From contig NZ_CP043028.1 in assembly GCF_008935055.1 (NCBI RefSeq), positions 757,501 through 821,500 of the forward strand: a stretch of 64,000 bases of DNA, given 5' to 3'. Position numbers and translations under genes: made by a program. This stretch comes from Pseudobutyrivibrio xylanivorans. Its GTDB lineage: Bacteria; Bacillota; Clostridia; Lachnospirales; Lachnospiraceae. The notes under the pieces were generated by a model that was not told the DNA's origin, did not search any database, and saw nothing but the letters and a program-made list of their open reading frames with translations. Of this stretch, positions 8,251 to 52,483 are shown piece by piece. Within the stretch, counting starts at the first letter, position 1; every line of letters starts with the position of its first letter.

Positions 8251-8333
8251 GCCTGTTACATTCACAAAGAATCCATTCTCTTTCAGTCACTAAATGTTCC
8301 TTTCAGAGAAGAATTACTTTGTGAATTACAGGC
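8251..8333. repeat. GTTACG hairpin repeat, copy 1
   Basis: A long imperfect palindrome fills the gap between the NeuA-like stop and the next gene. Outer arms GCCTGT/ACAGGC, middle arms TTCACAAAG/CTTTGTGAA (9 of 9), inner arms TTCTCT/AGAGAA, loop around GTCACTAAATGTTCC. The left arm is followed by TTACA-N3-ACAAAG, a variant of the GTTACG-N3-ACAAGC signature. There is no U-tract, so it is not an ordinary terminator. Confidence 0.75.
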
Positions 8334-9031
8334 TACTTATAATATTTATTTTCGACCATTAATTTCGCAATCTCGAAATCGATTGGATAATCGATATCCA
8401 CGGAGTCCTCACGTGACATCACGTAGGTTGTGGTGTTATCGCAATAATAGGTTCGCTTTTCCTTCAGGAGATTGTAATCAAGAATATAGATTGCTCCGTT
8501 AGGAATATAGTATGTTGCGTTGGTTTGGCGGTTTGCTATATTAGAGCCTGCAGCACCAAAGCCCGCATTTGAAACTCGTCCATTTTCATCTACCACATGG
8601 TACCATCCTGGTGGCACCTCTGCCTCTGTGAAGGAAATGAGAGTAGTAGACTTGTCCGATTCAAACTTCTCAATTGCCTCGTCAATATGATGCTCGTCTC
8701 TACATGGAACAGTAGCAAGGCACACCATGAATTTATCAAGCTTTTCGCCTGTCTCATTCATAACCCACTCTGCTGCATGAATATAAACATCTACAGCTGA
8801 AGCTGTATCGCTGGCAAGATAATCTGGACGCATAAATGGAACCTCAGCGCCGTACTCTCTTGCTACCCTTGCGATGTCCTCGTCATCTGTAGTGACGATG
8901 ACTCTATCAATGTGCTTTGCCTTCTTGCAGGCCTCTATCGTATATGCGATAAGAGGCTTGCCGCATAAATTTTTGATATTCTTCCCTGGGACACCTTTAG
9001 ATCCCCCACGAGCTGGAATAAATGCTATCAT
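8333..9031 (-). CDS. CMP-nonulosonic acid synthetase (NeuA/LegF type cytidylyltransferase)
   Basis: 232 residues, the usual length. It opens with FIPARGGSKGVPGKNIK, the CTP-binding signature of acylneuraminate cytidylyltransferases, followed by IDRVIVTTDDEDIA and RPDYLASDTAS. The reaction is CTP plus a nonulosonic acid to CMP-nonulosonate and pyrophosphate in the cytoplasm. With the NeuB-like synthase just upstream and LegB- and PtmE-like genes in the same operon, legionaminic acid or a relative is the likeliest substrate, but neuraminate or pseudaminate cannot be excluded. GGAGG sits nine bases before the ATG. Confidence 0.85.
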   Translation of the reverse strand: MIAFIPARGGSKGVPGKNIKNLCGKPLIAYTIEACKKAKHIDRVIVTTDDEDIARVAREYGAEVPFMRPDYLASDTASAVDVYIHAAEWVMNETGEKLDKFMVCLATVPCRDEHHIDEAIEKFESDKSTTLISFTEAEVPPGWYHVVDENGRVSNAGFGAAGSNIANRQTNATYYIPNGAIYILDYNLLKEKRTYYCDNTTTYVMSREDSVDIDYPIDFEIAKLMVENKYYK

Positions 9032-9046
9032 AATTCTAAATCCTCC

Positions 9047-9137
9047 GCTTGTTACGGTGACAATAATATAATTCTATTTTTCTCATCGTTTTCACTATAT
9101 TCTCGAAAAATAGAATATATCATTGTCCCCTACAAGC
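9047..9137. repeat. GTTACG hairpin repeat, copy 2
   Basis: Palindrome in the leader of the NeuA-like gene. Outer arms GCTTGT/ACAAGC, then GACAAT/ATTGTC, then an 11-base perfect inner stem ATTCTATTTTT/AAAAATAGAAT, loop containing TTCACTATATTC. The left side reads GTTACGGTGACAAT, fitting the GTTACG-N3-ACAA signature. Confidence 0.7.
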
Positions 9138-9173
9138 TAGTACATTTCAGTATTATCCACGAAATATCTTCTG

Positions 9174-10223
9174 TTAAAAGTCACCCCAAGTAAATATGTC
9201 ATCATACTTTACGTCGTGCTTAAGCTGACGTCCGATGAGAGCCTCATAATACTTAGGAGAGATTCCTGTACCTGGGCGCTTGTAGTCAAGGTCTTCGAAT
9301 GTAAGAACGTGACCTGCTGGCATATCGTGCTTTGCAACGATTGAGCGCTTGAACTCGTCACGACGGTTCTGATCCTCTACTACTACCTTGTGGTAGTTAC
9401 CAAGCATTGCGTAGCCCTGACGAGCAGCATCACAAATAGCCTTAAGCTCTGCTGGGTCAGCACTAACCTTGTGATCCCATCCTTCCATGTTCTTATCCAT
9501 TGTGAAGTGCTTCTCGATGATGCATACGTTCTTAGCAATACTCATGATTGGTGCAACTGTGCCGATTGTATGATCTGAGTAACCAACTGGATAATCAAAT
9601 ACCATGTTATACATATCAATGTTGTTAAGGTTAACATTCTCATCCTTTGGTGGGTACATAGATACACAGTGAAGGATAACAATCTCGTGACAGCCGCCCT
9701 CTTCAAGAGCCTGAACTGCTGCACAAACATCATCCATACCTGTAAGACCTGTTGAGATAACTACAGGAACACCCTTGCTACCTACGTGTCTAAGGAATGG
9801 AATGTTATCTACATCAAGTGATGCAACCTTAAGATATGGAACGTGAAGCTCATCAACAAGGAAATCTGCACCAGCCATTGAGAATGGTGTAGATACAAAA
9901 TCGATATCAAGCTCCTCGCAGTACTTCTGAAGCATAACGTGCTGCTCCTTTGAAACAGCATATGCCTCCATAACCGACTTTAATGTATAGTCTGTACGGT
10001 TTCTGTAATCATCTCCAAGGAAATAGTTATCCTCATACTTCTTCTTTGAAAAGAGGTCATCTACTGTCCAAGACTGAAGCTTAACGGCGTCAGCACCGCA
10101 CTCCTTTGCTGTCTTGATAAGTGTCTTGGCAAGCTCCATATCACCATTGTGATTAGCACCAAGCTCTGCGATTATATAAGGTCTCTGATTACCTTCTACC
10201 ATTGCCTGATAATTAAATCTCAT
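9174..10223 (-). CDS. N-acetylneuraminate/legionaminate synthase family (NeuB/LegI type)
   Basis: 349 residues from the ATG behind GGAGGACAATT; a longer frame upstream lacks a ribosome site. The NeuB barrel shows YIIAELGANHNGD near the start, DAVKLQSW, TPFSMAGADFL, SDHTIGTV and EKHFTMDK, and ends in a SAF domain (RRDEFKRSIVAKHDM, GTGISPKYY). These enzymes condense phosphoenolpyruvate with a six-carbon amino sugar to a nine-carbon acid. It overlaps the preceding GT2 gene by 11 bases and feeds the CMP-transferase downstream. LegC, LegH and LegG equivalents are not in the window and may lie past the left edge. Confidence 0.88.
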   Translation of the reverse strand: MRFNYQAMVEGNQRPYIIAELGANHNGDMELAKTLIKTAKECGADAVKLQSWTVDDLFSKKKYEDNYFLGDDYRNRTDYTLKSVMEAYAVSKEQHVMLQKYCEELDIDFVSTPFSMAGADFLVDELHVPYLKVASLDVDNIPFLRHVGSKGVPVVISTGLTGMDDVCAAVQALEEGGCHEIVILHCVSMYPPKDENVNLNNIDMYNMVFDYPVGYSDHTIGTVAPIMSIAKNVCIIEKHFTMDKNMEGWDHKVSADPAELKAICDAARQGYAMLGNYHKVVVEDQNRRDEFKRSIVAKHDMPAGHVLTFEDLDYKRPGTGISPKYYEALIGRQLKHDVKYDDIFTWGDF

Positions 10224-11034
10224 AATTGTCCTCCATCTGTATATCACTCCACCAGTATCCCTGGTGATTATTTGAAAGCTTTAGGTCGGATTCTTCCATG
10301 GCCAGAAGCTTAGTTTTCATTTCTTTAAAACAATCATATCTTTCAGAAAGAATACTGTAATGTTTTCTTTTAACATCCAACTCCTTCTTTAAATCTCTGC
10401 TTGTTCCAGCAGTGTTATTCTCATATATACGATAAATTGTTGTAGCATTATCCACCAGCTGTCCTTCGCCTATATCCATTAGAATTCTTGTAAACAGATA
10501 CCAGTCGAAGACAGGTGATTCACACTCATTTAGACTGTCTAAAAACTCATCTGAAATGGCATCCAATCTAATTCCTGTATTTGACAGACCAAGGAAATTT
10601 TGCTGTGATATTAGCTTTACATCCGTCACTGATTCAGGGAGGATTTTGAACACATCTTTGCCATCCTCTGTAACGAATTTATTATAAAAGAATACCTTAG
10701 TTTTGTCTAATTCATAGGCTTTTTTGTACTCTGCAACCCTTGTGGCTGAGCAAGCATCATCTGCATCCACAAGTATTGCCAAATCATATCCCAATTGCTT
10801 GGCTTGCCTAAGCATTTCGATACGAGTACCAACAATCGATAAATGCTTTTCATGGCAATCCACAACAACTGCTGATTCAGGCAAATTTAATTCCTCCAGC
10901 TCATTAGTTGAATAATTATCATTGATTATCAATAAATCAAAGTCTGAGTCGGACTGGTTATCCACAGAGTCTAATAAATCCTGTAGATAAGGCTTAGCTT
11001 GTGTATATATTACTGTTGCTATACATGTTTTCAT
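10213..11034 (-). CDS. glycosyltransferase family 2 (GT-A)
   Basis: 273 residues. The N-terminus TCIATVIYTQAKPYLQDLL and the metal-binding DADD in LAILVDADDACS give the GT-A fold of family 2. The ATG overlaps the TGA of the GT4 gene upstream (ATGA), and its end overlaps the NeuB-like start, so it is tightly coupled within the nonulosonate segment. It probably transfers a sugar to the growing lipid-linked unit; donor unknown. Confidence 0.75.
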   Translation of the reverse strand: MKTCIATVIYTQAKPYLQDLLDSVDNQSDSDFDLLIINDNYSTNELEELNLPESAVVVDCHEKHLSIVGTRIEMLRQAKQLGYDLAILVDADDACSATRVAEYKKAYELDKTKVFFYNKFVTEDGKDVFKILPESVTDVKLISQQNFLGLSNTGIRLDAISDEFLDSLNECESPVFDWYLFTRILMDIGEGQLVDNATTIYRIYENNTAGTSRDLKKELDVKRKHYSILSERYDCFKEMKTKLLAMEESDLKLSNNHQGYWWSDIQMEDNYEI

Positions 11035-12227: not shown

Positions 12228-12248
12228 ATATTCTCTCAATACTTTTTA

Positions 12249-13910: not shown

Positions 13911-13918
13911 TATTTTCC

Positions 13919-14959: not shown

Positions 14960-15003
14960 ATATTTTCTCATATAATACATATTTAAATATATCATAGCCA
15001 TAC

Positions 15004-15093
15004 ATAGACACGCTTTCGCTCTTATTCGCTCATTCCCCTACATAAGATGCTGCTATAGCACCATCTAAGTAGGGATGGCTCATCAAGGTCTAT
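15004..15093. repeat. 84-bp structured repeat, copy 1
   Basis: The core between GACACGC and AAGGTC is 84 bases and matches a second copy near 27.9 kb at 81 positions. Outer arms here are ATAGAC/GTCTAT; inside are CCCTAC/GTAGGG and AGATG-x-TGCTA/TAGCA-x-CATCT. The arms differ from those of the other copy but remain complementary. It lies between the LegB-like and PtmE-like genes. Confidence 0.8.
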
Positions 15094-16272: not shown

Positions 16273-16275
16273 TGA

Positions 16276-21702: not shown

Positions 21703-21716
21703 ATGCTCTCCAGTCC

Positions 21717-21805
21717 GCAATATGTTACGTTCACAAGCCATATGCTCTCTTCTAGCCACTAAATGTTCCTTACAGAGAGATATGAGCTTTTGAACTACAT
21801 CTTGC
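21717..21805. repeat. GTTACG hairpin repeat, copy 3
   Basis: Palindrome in the leader of the GT4 gene. Outer arms GCAATATGT/ACATCTTGC (8 of 9), middle GTTCACAAGC/GCTTTTGAAC (9 of 10), inner CATATGCTCTCT/AGAGAGATATG, loop with GCCACTAAATGTTCC. Contains GTTACG-TTC-ACAAGC. Confidence 0.75.
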
Positions 21806-24445: not shown

Positions 24446-24531
24446 CAAGTGTTACGCTAACAAGCAATCCACTCTCCTACGGTCACTACATGTGAGCCTC
24501 TGGAGAGGAATTAGCTTGTTATCTACACTTG
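24446..24531. repeat. GTTACG hairpin repeat, copy 4
   Basis: Outer arms CAAGTGT/ACACTTG, middle TAACAAGC/GCTTGTTA (8 of 8), inner TCTCC/GGAGA, loop CGGTCACTACATGTGAGCC. Contains GTTACG-CTA-ACAAGC exactly. This copy joins the two loop types (CTAAATG and CTACATG) seen in the other copies. Confidence 0.8.
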
Positions 24532-24570
24532 TTCTTTACTTAATATAAATTATCGGTTTTCAGTCAAACG

Positions 24571-27216: not shown

Positions 27217-27257
27217 ATCATCATCTCCCAAAAACTAAACTAGTAAAAGAATTCAAG

Positions 27258-31570: not shown

Positions 31571-31652
31571 GCCTGTTCCGGCTACAAGCCTAAGGCCTCT
31601 CTGCTCGACTACATGTCTCACTAAGAGACCTTAGAGCTTGATGCCTACAGGC
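31571..31652. repeat. GTTACG hairpin repeat, copy 5
   Basis: Between the HPr gene and leuA. Outer arms GCCTGT/ACAGGC, then CAAGC/GCTTG, then CTAAGG/CCTTAG and TCTCT/AGAGA, loop CTCGACTACATGTCTCA. Left signature GTTCCGGCTACAAGC, right GCTTGATGCCTAC. Confidence 0.8.
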
Positions 31653-31660: not shown

Positions 31661-31927
31661 CTATTCTCCTAATCCTGCTTCAATAGAATTTACGATGTCG
31701 TCGAGAGCTTCAGTCTCGTCTATGCCATCGCAAAATACTTCGATTTCCTCTCCTGTCTTTACGCAGGCGCCTAGTACGCTAAGTACTGATTTTGCATTCG
31801 CCTCGTAGTTATTGTCAGTGTGAAAGGTCACCTTGCTGCTATACTTCATTGAAATTTCGCATAGAAGTCCCGCTGGGCGCAAGTGCAACCCTGTCGCATT
31901 CTTTATCTTCACTTTTTTAGAAACCAT
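31661..31927 (-). CDS. ptsH: HPr-family phosphocarrier protein
   Basis: 88 residues, the family length. NATGLHLRPAG carries the phospho-accepting histidine and NAKSVLSVLGA the regulatory serine of Gram-positive HPr, so both PTS transfer and HPr-kinase control are possible. It stands alone, without ptsI beside it. A catabolite-only Crh form is unlikely because the active-site histidine is kept. Confidence 0.92.
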   Translation of the reverse strand: MVSKKVKIKNATGLHLRPAGLLCEISMKYSSKVTFHTDNNYEANAKSVLSVLGACVKTGEEIEVFCDGIDETEALDDIVNSIEAGLGE

Positions 31928-31950: not shown

Positions 31951-32037
31951 CAGTGTTTTACGTTAACAATAAATATGTTTTCTTTTAGTCACTAAATGTT
32001 CCTTTCAGCAAAATATTATATTGTTAACTAAGCACTG
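31951..32037. repeat. GTTACG hairpin repeat, copy 6
   Basis: Between glmM and the HPr gene. Outer arms CAGTG/CACTG, middle GTTAACAAT/ATTGTTAAC (9 of 9), an AT-rich inner stem, and loop AGTCACTAAATGTTCC. Left signature TTTACG-TTA-ACAAT. Confidence 0.7.
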
Positions 32038-40775: not shown

Positions 40776-40856
40776 GCTAGTAGTTAACAAAGCCTATACC
40801 TCCTTAGGAGCCAATCTCGCGACGTGAAGGTATAGGCTTTTGTTGACGTAACTAGC
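40776..40856. repeat. GTTACG hairpin repeat, copy 7 (inverted)
   Basis: Outer arms GCTAGT/ACTAGC, then GTTAACAAAGCCTATACCT paired with AGGTATAGGCTTTTGTTGAC with few interruptions. On the minus strand it reads GTTACG-TCA-ACAAAAGC and ends GCTTTGTTAACTAC, matching the family. The loop is different from other copies. Confidence 0.7.
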
Positions 40857-40867
40857 GTGGGCGAAGG

Positions 40868-41063: not shown

Positions 41064-42341
41064 ATGGCACGCATCGATTCAGCGTACAACTATTTCATGT
41101 CGACCTATGGCGATAGCATAGGCTCACGCTATGAATCCCACAAAAAAAGCGAACTGCGCGATACATACAACAAAATAGTCAAGGCCAATAAGGACTCTCC
41201 TCTCTACAAGATTAAGGACACCGAGGACATGGGGCAATTTGCTATCGATATTAAGGAGCATGCGAATTCGATGTCTATCTCTGTTTCTAATTTGACCTCT
41301 AATGGCGAAGATATAGAATCTATTCTCAGCAAACGAATTGCCTCATCTTCGGATCCAAATACCATCGAGGCTGCTTATGTAGGTGATGAGGAGACTGGTT
41401 CCACTGAGGAATTCACAATAGAGGTCGACTCCTTGGCCAAGCCTCAGATTAATACAGGAAACTTCCTGGCTCCGCAGGACATGAACTTCAAGCCTGGCCA
41501 ATATACCTTCGACTTAGACATTAAGAATCATTCTTACGAGTTCCAGTTCAACGTAAATCCAGGAGAGGACAATCTGGCAATCCAAAACAAGATTGTACGC
41601 CTTATCAATACTTCAGATGTTGGCTTGAATGCCCAGCTGATTACTAATCGAATCGCATCAAATGCCATTCAGGTTTCTTCTAAAGCAACAGGAATTGGGG
41701 AAGACGAGACCCGACTGTTCAACATTTCATCAACTATTTCCCGAGACGAGCTAGATATACTTGGAATTTCAAGAGTCACGCAAGAGCCAAGCAACTCTGA
41801 CTTTAAACTAAATGGAACTGAACACCAGTCCCTTTCAAATGTGTTCACTGTAAACAAAGCCTACGAGTTATATTTGAAAGCTCCGACAAACGGTGAAGTT
41901 ACAATTGGACTAAAGAATGATACTGAAGCACTCACTGATGGTGTAAATCAGATGCTTGACAGCTACAATGGAATGATAGATGTTGGACTTAGATATACAG
42001 GCGCGCATCAGAATCGTACCCTGTTTAACGAGATTTCATCTATTGCCAGGGGAATGACTGAAAGTCTTGCTTTTGTTGGAATTACAGCTGATGAAAATGG
42101 ACATCTTAGCTTGGACAGTGAAAGACTTGCAGATGTAATCAACAGTGATGACAAGGCTTCCGCATTCTCAACACTTAATGAATTAAAATCAGCTGTTAGA
42201 TCTGCGGCATCTAAGGCGTCGATAAATCCAATGGCTTATGTGGATAAAGCTGTTGTGGAATACAAGAATCCGGGTAAAACTCTCACTGCACCTTATGCGA
42301 CTAGTCAGTACTCAGGAATGATGGTGAATTACGGTCTGTAA
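41064..42341 (+). CDS. FliD/flagellin-related protein of unknown role
   Basis: 425 residues, no signal peptide. The middle (EEFTIEVDSLAKPQINTG, FDLDIKNHSYEFQFNVN, AIQNKIVRLIN) and C-terminal helix (GVNQMLDSYNGMIDVGL, DENGHLSLDSERLADVI) look like the domains of FliD-type cap proteins, but the usual N-terminal SGLTSGLDTE is replaced by SAYNYFMSTYGD. A normal fliD is present at 49.5 kb. AAAGGAGGG precedes the ATG. It may be a secondary cap or filament-associated protein; confidence in family is moderate. Confidence 0.55.
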   Translation: MARIDSAYNYFMSTYGDSIGSRYESHKKSELRDTYNKIVKANKDSPLYKIKDTEDMGQFAIDIKEHANSMSISVSNLTSNGEDIESILSKRIASSSDPNTIEAAYVGDEETGSTEEFTIEVDSLAKPQINTGNFLAPQDMNFKPGQYTFDLDIKNHSYEFQFNVNPGEDNLAIQNKIVRLINTSDVGLNAQLITNRIASNAIQVSSKATGIGEDETRLFNISSTISRDELDILGISRVTQEPSNSDFKLNGTEHQSLSNVFTVNKAYELYLKAPTNGEVTIGLKNDTEALTDGVNQMLDSYNGMIDVGLRYTGAHQNRTLFNEISSIARGMTESLAFVGITADENGHLSLDSERLADVINSDDKASAFSTLNELKSAVRSAASKASINPMAYVDKAVVEYKNPGKTLTAPYATSQYSGMMVNYGL

Positions 42342-42449
42342 ATAAATCTTACGCTCTTGTTACACTCTCAAGCCTTAGTGTTACTCTGTTCGACTACATG
42401 TCTCACTGAGTAACACTAAGAGCTTGATAGTTACAAGAGCTTATTTATT
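42341..42449. repeat. GTTACG hairpin repeat, copy 8, between convergent genes
   Basis: Outer arms AATAAAT/ATTTATT and GCTCTTGT/ACAAGAGC, then a 13-base perfect inner stem CTTAGTGTTACTC/GAGTAACACTAAG, loop TTCGACTACATGTCTCA. Left signature GTTACACTCTCAAGC, right GCTTGATAGTTAC. The arms start in one stop codon and run into the last codons of the convergent gene. Confidence 0.8.
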
Positions 42450-43591
42450 ATCTCCTTCAACCTCATTTCATACGAACAATTCTCACGCACGTGCTCATAT
42501 CCACAACGCGCGATGCGATTACGCTCGGTGTCATGGTGGAGGTAGTAGTCTACTTTTTCGTAGAGGTCCTGCTGGTTGTAGTACCAGACCATGTGCTTTT
42601 CATTTTCAAAAAACATTGGTAGTTCTGCTTGGAAATTAGTGATACAAAAACCTCCAGCCCCAAGAATATCGTAAATACGAAGTGGAACTCCGCTTTTTAT
42701 ATTTGGTATCGTAATATTTAAATTAACTTTTGAACCTCTAAATACCTTTGGCATCTCGCCCCAATAATCCACACTGCCTTTATAATTCACACGAATCAAA
42801 TCAGCCACATTTGAGTTTGTATAGATACTAACATCATGATGCTTTGAAAGCTCAATTAAAATACTACGTCTCTGCTTCTCGGCAATTTTAAATCCCAGCG
42901 TTGTTACTGAAAAAATCAAGTTCAAATCCGAGAGCGAATCCTCTGATTTTTCCAATTCAAAATAGTTTTCAAGCTCCACCAGAATCTCTGGTGTCAGCAT
43001 CCTGTCGATAATGTTCACACCCTGCAAATCCTTTTGAGCCTCCATTGTTGCCTCAAAATATCCACGCAAATAATCTGGCAATGTGAACTCCATCTTATCG
43101 TAGGAATTTTTTTCATACAGAGAACCAACAAAGCTTATTTCATTCTTATACATGTCCAAATCATTAGAATTTGTAAAGAGATAATCTAATCTGTTGGTAT
43201 CCACTGCAAGTGGCAAATGGTAAATATGCTCCGCCCCCATACCTTTGAATTCTTCTACATTTGTTAAATCAAATAGAAAGATTCTGTTTACGCTATTGAA
43301 AACTGACTTATGATAAAGGGATATCAGTGGATTATCGCAGCTCCAGCAAACATAAAGAAGCCCCATTTCTTCGCAGACGTTTGAAATCAGTGGGAAATAA
43401 TTGACTGTAAAAAAGAACTCATACGCGCTCTCCCTTATTATACCTCTGAGTTTTTCTGCAAAAACTTCATCCACATCATAATTGAGGAGGTCCTGGTAGA
43501 CCTCCTCCACTTCGTAGCCTAGCTTCTCAAAAGTGAATTTTATATCCTTGTAGTTATAGGCTTTCCACCTATACATCAAAATCTTTCTCAT
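42431..43591 (-). CDS. CgeB-like glycosyltransferase (probable flagellin modification)
   Basis: 386 residues. The N-terminal domain (RKILMYRWKAYNYKDI, FFFTVNYFPLISNVCE, WSCDNPLISLYH) is the DUF3880 type and the C-terminal domain (VNLNITIPNIKSGVPLRIYD, GAGGFCITNFQAELP) is the Glyco_trans_1_2 type seen in CgeB and in flagellin glycosylation loci. It is followed on the same side by the GT2-TPR gene and flagellin, which suggests O-glycosylation of the filament. No experimental link here. Confidence 0.7.
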   Translation of the reverse strand: MRKILMYRWKAYNYKDIKFTFEKLGYEVEEVYQDLLNYDVDEVFAEKLRGIIRESAYEFFFTVNYFPLISNVCEEMGLLYVCWSCDNPLISLYHKSVFNSVNRIFLFDLTNVEEFKGMGAEHIYHLPLAVDTNRLDYLFTNSNDLDMYKNEISFVGSLYEKNSYDKMEFTLPDYLRGYFEATMEAQKDLQGVNIIDRMLTPEILVELENYFELEKSEDSLSDLNLIFSVTTLGFKIAEKQRRSILIELSKHHDVSIYTNSNVADLIRVNYKGSVDYWGEMPKVFRGSKVNLNITIPNIKSGVPLRIYDILGAGGFCITNFQAELPMFFENEKHMVWYYNQQDLYEKVDYYLHHDTERNRIARCGYEHVRENCSYEMRLKEIINKLL

Positions 43592-43602
43592 ATCTTTAAT
43601 CC

Positions 43603-43685
43603 GTCAGTTACGGCTACAAGCCTTAGAGTCTCTTCCTTCGGCTACATGCCTCATCCAGAGACCTAAGAGCTTGATGCCTACTGAC
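43603..43685. repeat. GTTACG hairpin repeat, copy 9
   Basis: Outer arms GTCAGT/ACTGAC, CAAG/CTTG, CTTAG/CTAAG and GTCTCT/AGAGAC, loop TTCGGCTACATGCCTCATC. Left signature GTTACGGCTACAAGC, right GCTTGATGCCTAC, both exact family consensus. Confidence 0.85.
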
Positions 43686-43742
43686 TCATCTAAACATATT
43701 CTCACAATAAATACATACTCTTCAAATTATCTTTTTTCCCTA

Positions 43743-45608: not shown

Positions 45609-45648
45609 AGCTTCCCCTATTTCTCCACCTCATCCATAGAAATGGTTA

Positions 45649-45672
45649 AAGGCTCGTCATCTGACGAGCCTT
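45649..45672 (-). terminator. hairpin, probable terminator behind the 166-residue gene
   Basis: AAGGCTCGTCA pairs with TGACGAGCCTT, eleven complementary bases around a tiny loop, nine bases past the stop. T-tract is weak on the minus strand, so it may act in either direction or stabilise the 3' end. Confidence 0.5.
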
Positions 45673-45681
45673 ACTATTTGT

Positions 45682-46182
45682 TTATTCATAAGTTCCAACT
45701 ATAAGTGGTCTGTACATTTCCTCTCCTTCGGTAAGTCCTTCGACCTTGCCTAGGCAATCATCAATCAAGCGATTTATCTCTCCGCTTACGATTGCCTTTT
45801 CTCCTGGTGCTGTTACAAGTCCTCTAAAGTCGTAAATATCTATGTTTCTAATTTCTACTATTCTGTTTTCAATGTCTTGTAATATTTCACTTAAAGCCCA
45901 CTGGATTTTCTCTGTGTTGTCGATTACGAGTACTGTGTCCTTTAAGTTCTCACTTATATCGTAAATCAAATTGCAGTACTTTTCAAACTTTTCTACGATA
46001 TCGGTGTAATCCATCCCTTGAGATTCAAGGTATTCGCCTAATACTAAAGCTTTCTGCTGGCATCCGATGAGGACCTTTAAATCCTCTGCATCATCGCCTG
46101 TGCTGCCTGATTCAAATCTGTGACTTGCTGTGTAAAGCTCTAAAACCATTGTTAACATCTTGTTTCTTGTAAAATATGCCAT
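45682..46182 (-). CDS. uncharacterised helical protein near flagellin
   Basis: 166 residues, no signal or membrane segment, predicted mainly helical with acidic patches. It starts MAYFTRNKMLTMVLELYTA and ends in EGEEMYRPLIVGTYE. I do not recognise it. AGAGGTAAGG lies ahead of the ATG. It sits between flagellin and the GT2 gene, and could be a chaperone or a glycosylation partner; this is context only. Confidence 0.6.
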   Translation of the reverse strand: MAYFTRNKMLTMVLELYTASHRFESGSTGDDAEDLKVLIGCQQKALVLGEYLESQGMDYTDIVEKFEKYCNLIYDISENLKDTVLVIDNTEKIQWALSEILQDIENRIVEIRNIDIYDFRGLVTAPGEKAIVSGEINRLIDDCLGKVEGLTEGEEMYRPLIVGTYE

Positions 46183-46262
46183 AAGCCTTACCTCTTTCTT
46201 ATATGAAAATCCGTCTCCGGAATTATTATCATTGTTAAAATTTTATTTAGTTCTTCTTTTTA

Positions 46263-46293
46263 GTAAAACCCCCACCTCTTATTCGAGGTGGGG
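46263..46293 (-). terminator. flagellin terminator
   Basis: CCCCACCTC-GAATAA-GAGGTGGGG followed by GTTTTAC on the minus strand, about 29 bases past the flagellin stop. Strong GC stem, short T-run. Confidence 0.88.
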
Positions 46294-46321
46294 ATGATAT
46301 TTGATTTAGTGCTGATTAGTA

Positions 46322-47899
46322 TTACTGTAAGAGGTTCATAACACCCTGTGTAGCCTGATTAGCCTGAGCCAGCATTGACTGTCCTGCCTGCTGTAAGATG
46401 TTGTTCTTGCTGTACTCAACCATTGTGTCGGCCATATCTGTATCACGGATTCGAGATTCAGCTGCCTCTGTGTTCTCTACTACGTTATCCAGGTTCTTGA
46501 TAGAGTGCTCTAATCTGTTCTGTACGGCACCAAGTTCAGCTCTCTGTGCTGATACTCTCTGGATTGCATCTGCGATAGCATCGATTGCGTAGGTTGCTGC
46601 CTTACCAGTTGCATCTGATACGTTGAGTCCGTTGATACCAATTGACTTAGCATTCATTGCTTCAAGCTTAACGTTCAACTTGTTTGTCATGGCTGCGTCT
46701 GCACCAACGTGAAGGTTAAGTGTAAGTGCGTTCTGTACGTTTACGTAGCCCTTGCTAAGTGAGAATGCGATGGTAGTTGTTGTCTGGGTGTTAGCACCGA
46801 TAACTTGAGTTGTTGTTGTAGTCTTCCAGAAGTAGTTTCCTGATGACTCCCAAGCATTACCATTTGCTGCTGTAGCATGCATTCCAACTGTTGACTTCTT
46901 AGCTGTTTCTGCTGCTGTTATATCTGACTGGTTAGCCCACTTATCAACATCTGCCGAACCGTCTGTTGCGCCTACTGAAGATGCTGCCTTAAGCTCGATT
47001 GCTACCATTCTGTATGCCGCTGTTGCAGTTACGAGTGTTGCGTTTGACTTATCAACACCACTTACTGTATCGAGCTCTGCGAATAATGTTACTTCGTTAC
47101 CATTATACTTAAGAGTTGATCCACCAACGATAAGGTTGTTGAGGTATCCGTTTGTAACCTTTGCGTTAGCAACATCACTACTTGCTGTATTTACGATTGT
47201 GTAAGTCTTACCATCGATTGAAATTGTATCACCAGCTGTAAGGTTCCAGTTTGTCTCTCCTAATGTAGCCTTTGTTGTCTCTTTGAAAGTATCATCAAGG
47301 TGAAGGGCCTCTGCAGCTTCCTTCATTGTTCTGGCACCAATTGTATAGATTGTTCCACCGATTGTGTACTTCTCACCAGCTTCAAGAGACTCCATTGTAA
47401 ATGTTGCTCTGGTAGTATTCTGAACGAGTGTACCGTCAAGACCAGCATCATGTGCATTTACGTACATCTTCTTTAATCCGATGTCGCCCTTAAGAAGGTA
47501 TGTCTCGTTGAACTTTGTTGTAGAAGCGATTCGGTCGATTTCCTGTGTAAGCTGTGAAATTTCATTCTGGATATCATCACGGTCTGACTCTGAGTTTGTT
47601 CCGTTAGCTGCCTGAACTGCCAACTCATTCATTCTCTGGAGCATGTCGTGAACTTCTGTGAGGGCACCTTCAGCTGTCTGTACTGAAGAAACACCGTCAG
47701 ATGCGTTTGTAGAAGCCTGGGTCAAACCACGAATCTGCTTTCTCATCTTCTCAGAAATTGAAAGTCCTGCTGCATCATCAGCTGCTCTATTGATTCTAAA
47801 TCCTGATGAAAGCTTTTCAGTACTCTTTGACTGAGAATCTGTCGTAATGTTCAAAGTTCTTGAAGCATTAGCTGCCTGCATGTTATGCTGTACTACCAT
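46322..47899 (-). CDS. hag: flagellin
   Basis: 525 residues from the ATG behind GGAGG; five codons of open frame precede it. The N-terminal D0/D1 helices (VVQHNMQAANASRTLNI, LSSGFRINRAADDAAGLS, LQRMNELAVQAANGTNS) and C-terminal ones (AELGAVQNRLEHSI, NILQQAGQSMLAQANQ) are canonical; residues 150-440 are a large threonine- and alanine-rich outer region suited to O-glycosylation. It has its own sigma-28 promoter, a long GGA-rich leader and a terminator, so it is a single-gene unit. Confidence 0.97.
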   Translation of the reverse strand: MVVQHNMQAANASRTLNITTDSQSKSTEKLSSGFRINRAADDAAGLSISEKMRKQIRGLTQASTNASDGVSSVQTAEGALTEVHDMLQRMNELAVQAANGTNSESDRDDIQNEISQLTQEIDRIASTTKFNETYLLKGDIGLKKMYVNAHDAGLDGTLVQNTTRATFTMESLEAGEKYTIGGTIYTIGARTMKEAAEALHLDDTFKETTKATLGETNWNLTAGDTISIDGKTYTIVNTASSDVANAKVTNGYLNNLIVGGSTLKYNGNEVTLFAELDTVSGVDKSNATLVTATAAYRMVAIELKAASSVGATDGSADVDKWANQSDITAAETAKKSTVGMHATAANGNAWESSGNYFWKTTTTTQVIGANTQTTTTIAFSLSKGYVNVQNALTLNLHVGADAAMTNKLNVKLEAMNAKSIGINGLNVSDATGKAATYAIDAIADAIQRVSAQRAELGAVQNRLEHSIKNLDNVVENTEAAESRIRDTDMADTMVEYSKNNILQQAGQSMLAQANQATQGVMNLLQ

Positions 47900-48063
47900 A
47901 ATAAATTCCTCCATGAGATTCTGCTAAATCCTTTTAGCATTTAAATCCGTTTTTTTGATAGCCCAACATCCGTGTCTGGCCTTGGTTATTAAATTGATTT
48001 TTTAAGATTCGAATTCGATTTTGTAAGGTAATTTCCTTGTGCTAAATGTTCCTTACACCTTAT
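47900..48063 (-). promoter_or_regulatory. flagellin 5' leader with CsrA-type GGA sites
   Basis: About 160 bases of untranslated leader with seven GGA triplets: GTAAGGAAC, CAAGGAAAT, CACGGATG, AACGGATT, AAAGGATT and ATGGAGGAAT over the ribosome site. At 47966-47975 ACACGGATGT fits ACANGGANGU and can fold as CCAGACA-CGGA-UGUUGG with GGA in the loop. A GTAAGG/CCTTAC hairpin near the promoter shares the AACATTTAG loop of the GTTACG repeats. Confidence 0.65.
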
Positions 48064-48090
48064 TTATCGAATCTAAGCCTAGAAACTTTA
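48064..48090 (-). promoter_or_regulatory. sigma-28 promoter of flagellin
   Basis: Minus strand: TAAAGTTT, 11 bases, TTCGATAA. Agrees with the FliA/SigD consensus TAAAGTTT-N11-GCCGATAA at all but two positions. Confidence 0.88.
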
Positions 48091-48147
48091 CCCCTTTTTT
48101 TAAAAAAAGTTAAATTGTCTAATAATTCTCACTATATTTTGCATGGA

Positions 48148-48187
48148 ACAAAAAAACCGCAAACCCTTGAAAATACTAGGTTTGCGG
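48148..48187 (-). terminator. terminator of the flaG-fliD-fliS-fliT-like unit
   Basis: CCGCAAACC and GGTTTGCGG pair (9 of 9), followed on the minus strand by seven T. The rest of the 397-base gap carries the flagellin leader, its promoter and a GC-rich repeat near 48240-48290. Confidence 0.88.
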
Positions 48188-48244
48188 AATTCGTATATGC
48201 GGTAAAAAAAGTTATAAAATTTAATTAAATTTTTCTGCAAAATT

Positions 48245-48291
48245 GCCCTCATCCACCCCTTCGGGGCACCTTCTCCCAGTGGGGGAAGGCT
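48245..48291. repeat. GC-rich CCTCATCC-type palindromic repeat
   Basis: GCCCTCATCCACCCCTTCGG followed by GGCACCTTCTCCCAGTGGGGGAAGGC: a CCCC-TTC-GGGG hairpin and a CCTTCTCCC/GGGGGAAGG hairpin in tandem. From memory, similar short repeats are common between genes of gut clostridia. Confidence 0.55.
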
Positions 48292-48296
48292 ATCTT

Positions 48297-48779
48297 TCAT
48301 TTTTTCTTATCCAAAAATGCAGGATCCTCTACCTTATTATGGCTCATCATATTCTTATAATATGATGTTACAACATCATTAGATTTTTTTACCTCTCGTA
48401 TTTCTTTTTTTATGTTTGCAAAGCGAGTCTTTGCATATTCCCTATTTCTATATTCGCTTGCCTCTACATCAGCTGTAAGATCAGTAACCTCTCGAATCAA
48501 ATCCTGCATCAGGCGGATTTCATCTGCATAGGTTTCTCTGTCCTCATCTAAAATAGCCTTCACTCGATTAAATAGCTGCTCAAAGCCATTATCCAACATA
48601 ATGATTCTATCAATAAGCTCAGACTTCATATTCATATTTTTCTCCAAATCATCTGGAGAAGAGTTTGGGTCCTGCAAAATTGCAGCCTGCTCTTTATTTC
48701 TTATAGTAAGTACCCTTAATATGTCAGCCTTCTTCTCTAAAGACTCTCTCAACATTACAACATAATCCATATTTTCCAT
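48297..48779 (-). CDS. FliT-like flagellar chaperone candidate
   Basis: 160 residues from the ATG of MENMDYVV behind GGGAGGG; an earlier in-frame ATG lacks a ribosome site. Fully helical, charged, with SLEKKADILRVLTIRNKEQ and a basic tail FLDKKK. Position directly after fliS is where FliT or a FliT-like protein sits in many clostridial operons. Sequence similarity to FliT is not evident by eye, so the name is from context. Confidence 0.5.
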   Translation of the reverse strand: MENMDYVVMLRESLEKKADILRVLTIRNKEQAAILQDPNSSPDDLEKNMNMKSELIDRIIMLDNGFEQLFNRVKAILDEDRETYADEIRLMQDLIREVTDLTADVEASEYRNREYAKTRFANIKKEIREVKKSNDVVTSYYKNMMSHNKVEDPAFLDKKK

Positions 48780-48860
48780 CTCGTCCCTCCCGTGGGTAAA
48801 CAAACACCTCATCAGTCAGCTTTTTCCCCGTCCCCTAATAAGGGGCAACTTTCTGTACAT

Positions 48861-48947
48861 GGTGGTAGCAGACAAGCTCTTGGTGTTACTGAAAGGCACA
48901 TTCTAAAGTGCCTGGAAGTAATACCAAGGCTTGTATGCGTAACCACC
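48861..48947. repeat. GTTACG hairpin repeat, copy 10 (inverted), in a composite palindrome
   Basis: Outer arms GGTGGT/ACCACC, ACAAGC/GCTTGT, TTGGT-x-TTACT/AGTAA-x-ACCAA, inner GGCAC/GTGCC. The minus strand reads GTTACG-CAT-ACAAGC, exact consensus. Hairpins CCCCTAATAAGGGG (left) and AGCCCCTC-AAA-GAGGGGCT (right) frame it, so the whole 48813-49009 gap is structured. Confidence 0.8.
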
Positions 48948-49009
48948 TCTCAACATAAATTCAGCCCCTCAAAGAGGGGCTGTCATTAACTACTGTTTTG
49001 CCTGTCATG

Positions 49010-49420
49010 CTATCCTGCTATATTTGCTTGCCCATCCAACTTCTTTCCGTTGGCGGTAAGCCTCATTACATCCTTCCAGGTATCTCGCATGGTTCTTAGG
49101 TGCTTCAGCACCTCCTGCAAGGTCTCTGGGTTCTTATCTATCATAGCATGTCTCAAACAGCTCCTAAGATAAGAATATACTGCATGGAAATCCTTTGCAA
49201 CAGGATATTTATCATCCAAAGTAATTTCAAACTCTTCAATAATTCGGTCTACCTTACGAATATTGTTGTGAGCTTTCTCGATATCGTGGTTCTCGCAAGC
49301 CACAATAGCAATGTTGCAAAACTTAATCGCACCTTCATATAACATTAATGTTAGTTCAGCCGGTGACGCTGTAAGTATCTTATTTTTTGCGTAAGCATCG
49401 TATCCATTCATTGGTGTCAT
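49010..49420 (-). CDS. fliS: flagellin export chaperone FliS
   Basis: 136 residues. GYDAYAKNKILTASPAELTLMLYEGAIKF is spread over positions 6-34 in the family pattern, followed by IRKVDRIIEEFEITLDD and the helix YLRSCLRHAMID. FliS caps the flagellin C-terminus before export. It follows fliD by 43 bases in the same unit. Confidence 0.95.
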   Translation of the reverse strand: MTPMNGYDAYAKNKILTASPAELTLMLYEGAIKFCNIAIVACENHDIEKAHNNIRKVDRIIEEFEITLDDKYPVAKDFHAVYSYLRSCLRHAMIDKNPETLQEVLKHLRTMRDTWKDVMRLTANGKKLDGQANIAG

Positions 49421-49463
49421 AAAAATCGCCTCCTGTAACTCCTTTTACATCTGCCTCTTATAA

Positions 49464-51680
49464 TCAACCGCCTAACATCGATGTTAATGAAGATGAATTA
49501 TTCTGCAGCTTGGCAAGTGCAGACTCCATCTTAGAAAACTTCTTATAGTAAGCGTCCTCTTGATCTTTGATTCTGTCTGTCCACTGTTTAATCAGACTTG
49601 AGTAATTTGAATACTCAGAAGCCATTTCCTTATCGTTGTATACCGTATATACGGACTTAACAGCGGTAGACTTCATCTTCTTATCAAGATTTGAATACAA
49701 ATCACTTGTAAGTGCCTTCATGAAATCTATGACTTCATCTGGATTTGCAGCAATAGCAGCTCTCAGTTTATCCTCTGCACCAGAGGTATAGCTATCCTCG
49801 CTATCACCATTGATATGATAAGCATAGTTTTCATTCTTCTCAGCTTTAAGTGTTCCTAATGTGACGATTCCGTAGGTAGACAAGGCAACCTTCTTACCAT
49901 TTACCTCATAGGTTTTAAGCATAGAGGTTGTCATAGTGGAAATCAGTCCACTTAAAGTTGTATCACGACGAAGCAGCGAATCCTTGATTTTCTGCTCCCA
50001 TTTTTCAATTTCAGTCTCATTCATCTGACTCTTTTCATCGTCAGTAAGAGGCTCGTAATCTTTTGCAGAATCGGCGTTATATAGTTTCTGCATTTCGTTT
50101 ACTAAATTATTATATGAAGTAAGGAAGTCTTTAATTTTGTCATATAATGCATCTGTATCGTTCTGAACAGTTACATTAATCGCCTGTGTTGTCTCGGCCA
50201 TGGCCTCAATTGTAAGACCATTTACAGTGATTGAATTCGTATTATTGGTGTATTCAACTTCATTCAGAATAATCTTTGCATCCTGACCATCAATCTTTTT
50301 TGCCTTAAGTGAATCATCAATCTCAAGAGCCTGATTGTTAACTGCCACATTAGATGCCAAATCAACTCTGTAAAATACACTATCAACTAATTCCTTATTG
50401 TCCGACTGCGTCCAGAAATTGCTATAGCTCTCATCTGTTTCGCTGTTCTTTGAACCAAAATTAGCCTCAATATAATCAGCCCATTTCTTGTTGTTTGAAT
50501 CTGCCAATACTTTATTGAGTGCAGCCTGAGCCTCAGCTATATCTGTATCAGTAGTGGCCTTTCCAAGATTAACGTATGCATCTCTAATAGCATTTACTGC
50601 AGTATTAATCTCATCTTCTGTAGCTGACTGAGCTCTTGAATCATATGAGCCAGCATCATAAAGAGTCTTTCCAAGTGCAGTAATCTCATCTGCAGTTATT
50701 GTATCCCAATCAACACCATGATTTGTTTCTAAATCTGTAACAAAATCAGCATAAGTGTTTAACAATTCATTTGCAGTTTCGTATGCACGCGCTGCTGCTT
50801 CACCAGCTGCCTCTCTTGCTGCCGCTTGCTCTTCTGTCTCAGTAGATGGATCTTCAGGAGCTGCATAATCATCTGCATTATAATTTTTTACTGTATCTTT
50901 CGCTGTCTTTAAATTAGATACTAAACCTGCAAAACCTTCTGCATAGTAAGTTATTGACTTCGCACCATCTTTATAGGTATAGGTTCTCTGAGACATCTCA
51001 GAGCCCGCAGTTTCCCCCTTAATGGAATCAATTTCCTTATCAGAAAGAAGCCCTAATGTAATAAGTGTGCTAAGACCTGCAGTGTTGTTTGCTGAAATTT
51101 CAAAGTTTCCTTCGGCACCAGATGTCTGGGCACTAATAAAGAATCTATGATTTTTCTCATCAAAGTTTGCCTGTACACCAGCCTCATTAAATTTGCTAAT
51201 GAGCTGATCTATCTTTGTAGAACCATCAACCTCTATGTTCTTTGTTCCAGTGCTGGTTCTTACCTGAATGCTTGCTTTTTCACTTGTACCAGAAACAGCT
51301 CCAAGAGATGAAAGCGTTGCATCTCCTGTTGCTGCCGCCTCAATGTAACCACCTGTAATATAAGCGGTCTTGGCAAGCTGCTTAATCTCCAAAGTCTGCG
51401 TGCCATTAATGGCCTGTCCACTAGCTGTAGCAGTAGCCTTCGATGTATCGCTGACTGTAGTCTTCTTGGCAGAGTAATTTGAAGAATAGCGCATATTACC
51501 AACAGATGTATAGAGGTTATACACCTTGGTGTTTAAGCTCTTCCAAGCATCCTGTTTCCAGGTAAGCTTTGTCTGAGCCTTGGTATACTTATCCTTTTTA
51601 AAGCTGTAGGCTGATACAAGGGCCCCTACAATAGCCTCAGTATCTAGGCCAGATGTTAAGCCCGAAAGTCTAATAGGCAT
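49464..51680 (-). CDS. fliD: flagellar filament cap protein FliD
   Basis: 738 residues, on the long side for FliD. N-terminus IRLSGLTSGLDTEAIVGALV is diagnostic; VYNLYTSVGNMRYSS and TLEIKQLAKTAYITGGY mark the FliD_N domain, and the C-terminal FliD_C shows DKIKDFLTSYNNLVNEM and MESALAKLQNNSSSLTSML. A variable, acidic middle (270-430) accounts for the length. It caps the growing filament. AGGAGGG lies before the ATG; flaG ends 11 bases upstream. Confidence 0.95.
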   Translation of the reverse strand: MPIRLSGLTSGLDTEAIVGALVSAYSFKKDKYTKAQTKLTWKQDAWKSLNTKVYNLYTSVGNMRYSSNYSAKKTTVSDTSKATATASGQAINGTQTLEIKQLAKTAYITGGYIEAAATGDATLSSLGAVSGTSEKASIQVRTSTGTKNIEVDGSTKIDQLISKFNEAGVQANFDEKNHRFFISAQTSGAEGNFEISANNTAGLSTLITLGLLSDKEIDSIKGETAGSEMSQRTYTYKDGAKSITYYAEGFAGLVSNLKTAKDTVKNYNADDYAAPEDPSTETEEQAAAREAAGEAAARAYETANELLNTYADFVTDLETNHGVDWDTITADEITALGKTLYDAGSYDSRAQSATEDEINTAVNAIRDAYVNLGKATTDTDIAEAQAALNKVLADSNNKKWADYIEANFGSKNSETDESYSNFWTQSDNKELVDSVFYRVDLASNVAVNNQALEIDDSLKAKKIDGQDAKIILNEVEYTNNTNSITVNGLTIEAMAETTQAINVTVQNDTDALYDKIKDFLTSYNNLVNEMQKLYNADSAKDYEPLTDDEKSQMNETEIEKWEQKIKDSLLRRDTTLSGLISTMTTSMLKTYEVNGKKVALSTYGIVTLGTLKAEKNENYAYHINGDSEDSYTSGAEDKLRAAIAANPDEVIDFMKALTSDLYSNLDKKMKSTAVKSVYTVYNDKEMASEYSNYSSLIKQWTDRIKDQEDAYYKKFSKMESALAKLQNNSSSLTSMLGG

Positions 51681-51691
51681 AGAAAACCCTC

Positions 51692-52120
51692 CTATCTCTT
51701 TTCATCAACCATAATTCCTGCCAACTCCCATGCCTTTGCAATAAGGTCAAGGGTCTGCTCAGCTGGAAATTCCTTAATTACTTTTTTGGTCTCTTTATCG
51801 ACCATCTTAATCATCACGCGGTTTGTACCCTCATGGATACCAAATACCGCTTCCGCATTACCTTGAGCAGAATTAATCTTGCTGATTGCCTCTTTGAGGG
51901 ACGATGTTGCCTGCCCTGCAGTAGTCTCCTCTTCCTTTTCCTTCTGCTCTTCCTTTGACTTAGGGTTTATATCTTCAGACTCGCTGGCGCGAATTTCCTT
52001 TGCTGCTGTTGCAAAGTCCACTGGGGAACTCTGCCTTGTCTCCTGTACTGGCGCCGTCTTTGCTGAACTTCCCTGTCCCTGGTAGCTGCTCACTGCACTA
52101 CTTACTTCGCCGATTTTCAT
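51692..52120 (-). CDS. flaG: FlaG family protein
   Basis: 142 residues. A low-complexity Ser/Glu/Lys first half, then FGIHEGTNRVMIKMVDKET and IKEFPAEQTLDLIAKAWEL, the FlaG core. FlaG affects filament length in other bacteria. It heads the flaG-fliD-fliS unit, with AGGAGG five bases from the ATG and a CsrA-type hairpin three bases before that. Confidence 0.9.
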   Translation of the reverse strand: MKIGEVSSAVSSYQGQGSSAKTAPVQETRQSSPVDFATAAKEIRASESEDINPKSKEEQKEKEEETTAGQATSSLKEAISKINSAQGNAEAVFGIHEGTNRVMIKMVDKETKKVIKEFPAEQTLDLIAKAWELAGIMVDEKR

Positions 52121-52297
52121 TTCTTCCTCCTTCTATACATCCCTGTATCCGTGGAAATATTTGCGACTTCTTGTGTGCTACTTATGGAAAAGCACACAAG
52201 AACCCTGCCTTGCAGGGCAATATTTTCTTTCAGAAAATATTGGTCCAGTTCCGGTTCTTGTTTTTCTGATGAAAAACAAAAACCTATAGTTTTCTAA
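52121..52297 (-). promoter_or_regulatory. structured 5' leader of flaG-fliD
   Basis: About 177 bases with perfect stems in order of transcription: TTGTTTTTC/GAAAAACAA, AATATTTTC/GAAAATATT, CCCTG/CAGGG, and CTTGTGTGCT/AGCACACAAG. A competing eight-base pairing CAAGAACC/GGTTCTTG would enclose the middle two and shares four bases with the last stem. A CsrA-type hairpin and the ribosome site follow. Confidence 0.65.
52135..52148 (-). promoter_or_regulatory. predicted CsrA-binding hairpin before flaG
   Basis: The RNA reads AUACAGGGAUGUAU: a five-pair stem AUACA/UGUAU with GGGA in the loop. It contains RUACARGGAUGU, the in vitro selected CsrA consensus, at every position, and lies three bases before AGGAGG. 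Confidence 0.8.
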
Positions 52298-52302
52298 TCA
52301 TT

Positions 52303-52330
52303 ATATCGGTCCCTCGTCTGCGTTTGTTTA
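52303..52330 (-). promoter_or_regulatory. sigma-28 promoter of flaG-fliD
   Basis: Minus strand TAAA, 16 bases, ACCGATAT. The TAAA to CCGATA spacing equals that of the flgM promoter and is one base longer than for flagellin. Confidence 0.65.
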
Positions 52331-52352
52331 TATCAAAAAATAATTTTTTTTC

Positions 52353-52388
52353 AAAAAAATAAAGCTAGTCTATTATTAGACTAACTTT
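52353..52388 (-). terminator. terminator of fliW-csrA
   Basis: AAAGTTAGTC/GACTAGCTTT stem (with a loop of eight) followed by ATTTTTTT on the minus strand. It ends the csrA transcript before the flaG promoter. Confidence 0.85.
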
Positions 52389-52400
52389 ATGATTAAGTGA

Positions 52401-52483
52401 GCTGGTAGGCATCAAGCTCTTAGGTCTCTGTATGAGGCATGTAGCCGAATGAAGAGACCCTAAGGCTTGTAGCCGTAACCAGC
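52401..52483. repeat. GTTACG hairpin repeat, copy 11 (inverted)
   Basis: Between csrA and its terminator. Outer arms GCTGGT/ACCAGC, inner CTTAGGTCTCT/AGAGACCCTAAG, loop TGAGGCATGTAGCCGAA. The minus strand reads GTTACGGCTACAAGC and GCTTGATGCCTAC, identical to copy 9 at both signatures. Being upstream of the terminator it is probably part of the csrA mRNA. Confidence 0.85.

Follow-up and report, generated by a model that had tools for sequence, protein, structure and literature searches.

The window considered here is a stretch of 64,000 nucleotides (nt) from Pseudobutyrivibrio xylanivorans (contig NZ_CP043028.1, positions 757,501 to 821,500 of the forward strand), in which eleven near-palindromes of 82–110 nt are scattered between positions 8251 and 52483 among protein-coding genes. 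The original prediction, made from the letters of the sequence, described them as intergenic hairpins in which half-sites are shared while stems vary and stay paired. All eleven are present and all of them fold: when the complement of the strand originally read is folded as RNA, each beats all of 200 dinucleotide shuffles, with z values from -3.85 to -9.96. Their half-site, GTTACGNNNACAAGC, occurs 15 times in the window with up to two mismatches, against 2.9 expected, and none of 100 shuffles reaches 15. On balance, the observations lean towards a genus-specific family of small non-coding mobile repeats lodged in the hairpins of terminators and operons, the core fold of which would be kept by selection acting on one strand.

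Gene contexts throughout are those of a longest-open-reading-frame caller made for the analysis, and the strand of each window copy is the one that folds with G-U pairs. The first copy (8251..8333, minus strand, the folding strand being gene-sense) lies between the open reading frames (ORFs) 8333-9031(-) and 7086-8237(-), with GGGAG adjoining its stem. The second (9047..9137, -), which has a divergent apical loop, is followed directly by GGAGG and, 15 nt on, by the start codon of 8333-9031(-). The third (21717..21805, -) has an outer arm of 9 base pairs (bp) with one mismatch and overlaps the mechanically called 5′ end of ORF 20608-21759(-), the real start of which probably lies downstream. 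Copy 4 (24446..24532, -) separates 24571-27231(-) from 23047-24435(-). Copies 5 and 6 flank the HPr gene (31661-31927, -; assigned by Pfam). Copy 5 (31571..31652, -) lies between this gene and leuA (29847-31535, -), in a gap that is also filled in 14 further genomes of the genus, and copy 6 (31951..32037, -), with aligned copies in 9 further genus genomes, lies between it and a gene of the phosphomannomutase family (32041-33390, -).

The sequence-divergent copy 7 (40776..40857, +) is found between two plus-strand genes, 23 nt past 39721-40752. Copy 8 (42341..42450, -), originally read as a single element, proves to have two layers, an 84-nt element at 42355-42438 being enclosed in an extra outer arm between the convergent 41064-42341(+) and 42431-43591(-). 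Eleven nt upstream of the latter ORF stands copy 9 (43603..43687, -), whose core is 0.97–0.99 identical to copies with other arms at genome positions 225730 and 1783078. The folding strands of the last two copies are antisense to their neighbours: copy 10 (48861..48947, +) to fliS (49010-49420, -) and 48297-48812(-), and copy 11 (52401..52483, +) to a flaG-like gene (51692-52120, -) and a fliW-like gene (52719-53171, -). The region 41064-53171, which holds four of the eleven elements, encodes flagellin-, fliS-, fliD-, flaG- and fliW-like genes together with a weakly SunS-like glycosyltransferase, most of these matches being below curated cut-offs.

The family extends far beyond the window. A covariance model built from the eleven window copies (R1) refinds all eleven, by construction, and matches 140 places in the genome at E<=1 among 150 candidates scored, all of them full length against the model (81–91 nt). 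A second model (R2), made for the complement strand from an alignment of 88 sequences (A3), matches 147 of 150 scored candidates. The further genome copies anticipated in the original prediction thus exist, and both counts are lower bounds; the true copy number exceeds those listed, and long forms and further copies turned up outside the list. Six perfect half-sites lie outside the 140 copies: three belong to long-form elements, one stands beside a listed copy and two are unpaired (L261, L263). At the last two, neither a second half-site in the 4 kb read nor a parent transposon was seen, the ORFs there being unannotated and the genome not exhausted.

Within the genus, 24 of 25 genomes, that of the window included, carry the element, with 2 to 107 matches each; G020 has 0, G006 has 2 and G003 has 7, and more than 100 are found in G002, G013 and the genome studied here (G000). 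Outside the family but within the order, 16 genomes were searched and none matched. The original prediction had pointed to other Lachnospiraceae, and here the family-wide search (397 genomes of 334 genera, R1 and R2 each, 11 candidates scored per genome) matched two genomes only, both of the genus of origin, and yielded no copies in other genera at the depth used. Among 80 named genome records around leuA, matches at E<0.01 are confined to four titled Pseudobutyrivibrio (P. ruminis CF1b, P. xylanivorans MZ8 and two metagenome-assembled genomes), the best E value in the other 76 being 0.8. Genome searches scored 150, 111 or 11 candidates per genome, and the many-genome mode applied stricter filters, so that absence means absence at that depth; at that depth, the element is restricted to one genus, whose named representatives are Pseudobutyrivibrio.

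Rfam 15 gives no match in the window at the gathering threshold, and three weak matches, up to E 5, overlap no element. The family is therefore absent from Rfam 15, and the original statement that no named family fits holds in this sense. Phage and plasmid records searched with window copy 9, the sole copy tried, gave no match. Two loci on viral contigs were retrieved by one pattern and none by a second; one of the two (L464) has no model match. The other (L465, IMGVR_UViG_3300036470_000069), on a contig listed as viral, carries genes of the UDP-galactopyranose mutase and sugar-nucleotide dehydratase families with two elements; its gene gap resembles the same gap in G012, and it is probably chromosomal.

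The core of the element is about 71 nt long, with constant ends in which GU is followed by A(G/A) on one side and GUA is followed by AC on the other. In A3, which comprises 88 rows of 92 chosen sequences (three most divergent-seeming ones and one more were left out) on the strand opposite to that originally read, 28 pairs are predicted, 25 of them with double changes. The fold begins with an outer stem of 6 bp (NNNNGU/ACNNNN), inside which A faces GUA in a 1x3 internal loop. Three variable pairs and a partly open step lead to a near-constant CAA/UUG, with GC/GC next to it, and to a bulged U. Beyond the bulge come two blocks of variable pairs, eleven in all, then the apical internal loop and, at the tip, a small hairpin. 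The suspected paired change is borne out on the strand originally read as well: in an alignment of 99 distinct rows (A2), 24 of 27 pairs show double changes, and covariation reaches 0.538, far above shuffled (0.141) and slid (<=0.077) controls, although the shuffles are no strict test because the alignment was fitted to the model and its rows are related. The claim that outer arms always match is true of most copies, 115 of the 140 having a perfect 6-bp outer arm, and fails in the window itself for those at 21717 and 31951, which are mismatched.

The two strands do not fold equally well. In the orientation originally read, the consensus pairs of the 99 distinct rows include 13 G-T pairs and 62 A-C mismatches. 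On the complement, the 140 copies give 3208 Watson–Crick pairs, 151 G-U, 23 A-C and 114 others, the pairs behind the 151:23 count being those of RNAalifold on the same strand; with pairs derived from the model of the opposite strand the direction is unchanged (G-U 62 versus A-C 13). All these counts are per cell and run over copies that are related to one another. The original description of the fold stands, then, with the best-folding and usually gene-sense strand being the complement of the one described. The excess comes mostly from the inner stem (137:21), the outer six pairs adding 14:2. It keeps its sign in the 16 copies that are antisense to genes (10 G-U versus 1 A-C), and is therefore a property of the element's own strand rather than of local transcription. 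Taken alone, the leuA and pre-HPr sets (10:4 and 4:4) are too small to show a strand bias. An explanation at the level of DNA only, suggested by the scarcity of G-U on the strand originally read, was dropped in view of the complement's 151 G-U versus 23 A-C; what is selected seems to be a folded single strand, either RNA or single-stranded DNA.

The placement of the copies follows genes. Of the 140, 90 lie gene-sense in co-directional gaps, 32 in convergent gaps, 16 are antisense to both neighbours and two are in divergent gaps; 122 are downstream of a gene on the same strand, with the stem starting at a median of 26.5–28 nt past the upstream stop codon. A sample of 440 kb of genus DNA has no element in 22 divergent gaps, 47 in 176 co-directional gaps and one in 7 convergent gaps, 8 of 56 elements being unassignable. 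Co-directional sense copies agree with the regional gene strand in 87 of 90 cases, and convergent copies are split 16:16, a result with odds of 3.8e-6 under a shared 90:16 bias. The regional strand is here the coding strand of the ORFs in the fetched loci; an earlier count based on the majority strand of the elements (138 of 140 copies), which is partly circular, gave the same 16:16. Since convergent copies are split evenly and co-directional ones stand at 90:16, orientation goes with transcription and not with region. Replication direction is for the same reason not favoured as a cause of orientation, replication direction itself not having been determined.

The sequences adjoining the stem vary with position in the transcription unit. 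On the sense strand, TTTT within 16 nt after the stem is found in 34 of 140 copies: in 4 of 51 with a start codon within 40 nt, 16 of 41 with a farther start, 14 of 32 in convergent gaps and 0 of 16 antisense copies. For far-start and convergent copies together this makes 30 of 73, versus 4 of 51 near a start (Fisher p 3e-5). The statement that none has a U-tract is thus correct for the window insofar as no copy has a T-run directly after the stem, and needs amending for the copy at 8251, with TTTT at nt 12–15 past the stem on the sense strand, as well as for the genome at large. Stem extensions of at least 3 bp are similarly distributed (31 of 73 far-start or convergent copies, 2 of 51 near-start), and an extra stem of 4–6 bp is present in 15 of 32 convergent versus 7 of 90 co-directional sense copies. 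Conversely, GGA directly after the stem is seen in 22 of 51 near-start copies and in 15 of 73 of the others. The frame RTGA-stem-GGA occurs in 37 of 140 copies; in operons, about a quarter of the copies show YTARRTGA-stem-GGA and a few ATA-stem-GAG. No convincing covariation between the two flanks of the operon frame was found in 32 copies.

Core and outer arms behave as separable parts. Among copies of the genome with cores at least 90% identical there are 93 pairs, which are not independent because they involve 56 copies in 12 clusters; outer arms differ in 84 of the 93, and in 71 of these 84 they are perfectly complementary on both copies. Two pairs have identical cores and different arms. 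Point mutation with compensation is a poor explanation of such changes, because the core is unchanged. A natural example is provided by the 3′ end of ilvC, read in 26 genomes (one of 27 loci, L443, was left out as cut by its contig). A downstream terminator stem, GCCAC..GGTGG, is common to 14 of them and missing from the other 12. Within the 14, the same stem carries a plain loop without element trace in G002 and G021, an element in gene-sense orientation in G000, G014 and G001, a reversed one in G004 and G013, and shortened forms in seven (G016 and G012, weakly matched by R2, and G017, G022, G023, G007 and G015, identified by eye). Near-identical cores with different arms, and a stem shared by empty, filled and reverse-filled species, imply that the arms largely belong to the host hairpin and that much of their paired change is that of the host. 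The ilvC pattern may reflect either repeated insertion or one insertion followed by flips and losses. Of the two causes originally offered for paired change, selection on the fold thus suits the inner stem, on the other strand, and insertion into palindromes suits the outer arms; both seem to act.

Occupancy differs between species. Upstream of leuA, 27 genomes were read (two with partial genes, G009 and G439, were absent from the first reading): 15 have an element, ten a short gap, one another insert and one a contig cut. Seven orthologous gaps in the leuA region, each read in 12–21 genomes, are filled in 1 to 10 of them, never-filled gaps being unlisted. Apparent scars were recognized by eye, as were all shortened forms, nested copies and module positions reported here; in G019 one 5′ half is left, and in G021 nothing but a mini-hairpin made up of the arms and the internal loop. 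Some sites, by contrast, have long been kept, since 13 leuA and 10 pre-HPr copies align across species with paired arm changes.

Elements are also built into one another. Complete elements replace the apical part of others at L010, L011, L013, L014 and L015, and a two-layer design is common to three copies of the genome (L163, L174, L180). A separate module of about 65 nt, formed of two hairpins (AAAAGGAUGAUUGC..GCAAUCAACUUUU then GUAAGC..GCUUAC, sense strand), occupies one and the same apical site within the element in 15 of the 18 copies viewed in this genome and lies inside other hairpins in three. It has 25 matches here at E<=1, 18 of them at E<=1e-8 (module-bearing loci include L258, L259, L262, L267, L271, L273, L298 and L303-L310), and occurs in 10 of 29 genus genomes at E<=1e-8; ten loci scanned against Rfam gave no match at gathering score.

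Several neighbouring features were noted alongside. At L009 (G000:C1:1287250-1287550), a single hairpin has four tandem half-sites of 35–36 nt on one of its sides, separated by A-runs (T-runs when the opposite strand is read), for which alternative terminator strands and slippage are candidate readings. At L022 (1005-1161), an element bears a different two-hairpin insert in its apical loop, GATTTGC..GCAAATC and GCCCATTGC..GCATGGGC. A third folded intergenic element, about 240 nt long by eye, also bears the module (L275, L276, L278, L280, L282, L311) and is of the type GACACGC.. with CCCTAC.TAGATGGT..GTAGGG. A further repeat, CTTCCCC..GGGGAAG or CTTCTCCC..GGGAGAAG, often with GCTGTCAGC..GCTGACTGATGAGG, occurs at L315, L316, L320 and L322 and in gaps of G013, G436, G007 and G021; it fills gene gaps, partly those that the element fills in other species. 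Finally, a tmRNA-like match at positions 1-257 of L273, truncated where the locus ends, has E 6e-9 without reaching the gathering score; a long-form element lies about 1.2 kb away.

The core sits inside an outer stem, which in operons is placed between a stop codon and the start of the following gene. If the element is indeed a mobile repeat, the outer stem found where transcription units end would often be that of an intrinsic terminator, lengthened by extra base pairs and trailed by a U-tract. Copies would arise as the core moves, sometimes with flanks or as a nested unit, into hairpin-forming sites; such movement into existing hairpins, as opposed to exchange or flipping in place, may depend on a putative enzyme acting in trans. 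Copies would then decay by apical loss to mini-hairpins or to one arm, the shortened forms being the presumed products. Between such events the inner fold would be held by selection on one strand, as RNA or as single-stranded DNA during movement, and the element in place may work as a terminator or as an intercistronic mRNA hairpin. In a more daring and rather improbable version, the element would travel folded and single-stranded, either as RNA that is then copied back or as single-stranded DNA, and enter hairpin loops of transcribed gaps. In such hairpin-into-hairpin transposition, the outer stem would be borrowed from the host terminator, orientation would follow transcription and the apical loop would accept the second, two-hairpin module, leading to a modular stacking of RNA domains.

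Several observations weigh against mobility of this kind. Neither a transposase nor another carrier was identified for the element, no target-site duplication is found at the arm edges of 140 copies, and no strain-level empty site with near-identical flanks was available among the genomes compared. When the fetched DNA was searched for operon frames that enclose an outer arm without a core, one 36-nt match came up (L219), which lacks element motifs. Sampled convergent gaps contain 0.44 elements per kb versus 1.6 in co-directional gaps, so that terminators between convergent genes are no hot spot there. At ilvC, five of the seven shortened forms were called by eye and missed by R2, and loss followed by re-use of the stem, or an in-place flip of the palindromic core, could mimic repeated insertion. 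In the nested L010, L011 and L013, flanks and arms seem to have come with the inner unit, and arms are therefore not always host sequence. The strand bias is no proof of RNA, because G-T is milder than A-C in DNA too, and the persistence of the leuA and pre-HPr copies looks more like that of a useful fixed part than of a passing insertion. A Y1_Tnp domain, moreover, is matched in the element-rich G000, G002, G013 and G015.

A rival reading is a vertically inherited mRNA element, a genus-wide intercistronic and 3′-end hairpin that a protein would bind or cut, in RNase III-like processing or in the protection of 3′ ends, multiplied by duplication and with arms shaped by compensatory evolution. 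Gene-sense orientation, near-absence from divergent gaps, the stop-to-start position, TTTT mainly where transcription should end, the G-U bias and orthologous copies with paired changes all agree with it. It would not lead one to expect that two identical-core pairs at unlinked sites have different complementary arms, which point-by-point compensation does not produce, that occupancy differs between species at all seven element-holding gaps, or that 16 of 140 copies are antisense to both neighbours; it is accordingly a possibility of the lesser sort, worth keeping in mind. A comparable, tentative standing is given to the exchange of cores between hairpins by gene conversion, or their flipping by recombination between arms, with little true transposition. 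This would directly predict same-core, different-arm pairs and both orientations at one terminator, and it fits the 16:16 split of convergent copies; taken alone, it leaves filled versus empty gaps, nested units and the two trace-free ilvC terminators unexplained.

Transposition by known machinery is harder to sustain. Three observations favour repeats of the repetitive extragenic palindromic (REP) and BIME type, moved by a REP-associated tyrosine transposase (RAYT) of the Y1 class: the hairpins lie in intergenic DNA that is transcribed, the folding strand has GTA(G/A) at its 5′ arm, and Y1_Tnp (PF01797) is matched, in three copies here and in the element-rich G002, G013 and G015. REP/RAYT systems have a GTAG/GGAG tetranucleotide beyond the stem, at the foot of the hairpin on its 5′ side; no such foot is present, the conserved GUA(G/A) having its GU as the top of the outer stem in A3. 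The REP-type transposase evoked in the original prediction is thus represented in this genome by its domain, without following the repeats through the genus: only 10 of 29 genus genomes match, and six with 60–97 elements have no match (G012, G011, G016, G018, G021, G007). The three Y1 genes (L074-L076; G000:C1:587618, 2118809 and 2219133) are 194-aa frames of the same score sharing identical stretches of 377 and 685 nt, look like ordinary insertion-sequence copies, and probably all represent a single insertion sequence that has nothing to do with the repeats. The REP/RAYT link is disfavoured on these phyletic grounds and is highly improbable. An ordinary miniature inverted-repeat transposable element (MITE), which a DDE transposase cuts and pastes and which is bounded by terminal inverted repeats and by duplications of the target site, would also be a short, many-copied imperfect palindrome with no ORF. 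Direct repeats of 2, 3, 4 and 5-8 nt at the arm edge number 12, 0, 4 and 0 of 140 (expected 6.9, 1.9, 0.45 and <0.1), and 6, 0, 0 and 0 after trimming of stem extensions. A MITE with target-site duplication is rejected, as there is no duplication; in general, a MITE is very unlikely, since the outermost four base pairs vary freely where terminal repeats should be constant, and the one-strand G-U bias speaks against it.

The dispersed, small mobile repeat with a conserved fold accordingly stays the favoured description, and its marks, dispersed copies, varying occupancy and a compensatory fold, are those of bcr-like repeats in the broad sense. The bcr-type repeats of the Bacillus cereus group are likewise group-restricted and mobile, with a fold conserved by compensatory change; compared by description and not by sequence, bcr1 differs in being about 155 nt long and is not known to be tied to terminator loops. 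REP, BIME and REPIN sequences of Enterobacteriaceae and Pseudomonas are also small folded intergenic repeats, present in hundreds of copies in transcribed non-coding DNA, whereas the present element is longer, has a site-specific outer arm, is gene-oriented, nested and partly embedded in terminators, and belongs to a genus without a consistent Y1 transposase. NEMIS and ERIC are likewise hairpins that are transcribed from intergenic DNA and may undergo processing within mRNA, but the constant terminal repeats and TA-type duplication of NEMIS are not found. Stem-loops, often terminators or repeat palindromes, are also the target of IS1397 in REP loops, of the IS1111 group in attC and of group IIC introns at terminators; these carry their own protein, unlike the non-coding element of about 71 nt described here. 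The core site of integron attC is GTTRRRY, and the usual half-site GTTAC(G/A), with C at position 5, departs from it; an integrase was not searched for. In place and distribution the element therefore resembles REP, bcr and NEMIS-type repeats, and it lacks the defining marks of REP/RAYT and of classical MITEs. What sets it apart most is its build, a hairpin within a hairpin with an outer stem particular to each site.

The family, absent from Rfam 15, can now be searched for. If the proposed reading is true, a small folded repeat has reshaped the transcript ends and operon gaps of a whole genus of rumen bacteria, and one genome alone offers over 100 natural experiments. It would offer a direct test of how non-coding hairpins spread without a recognisable transposase, and would call for caution in reading covariation, as that of an outer stem can reflect different host palindromes and not only selection on RNA.

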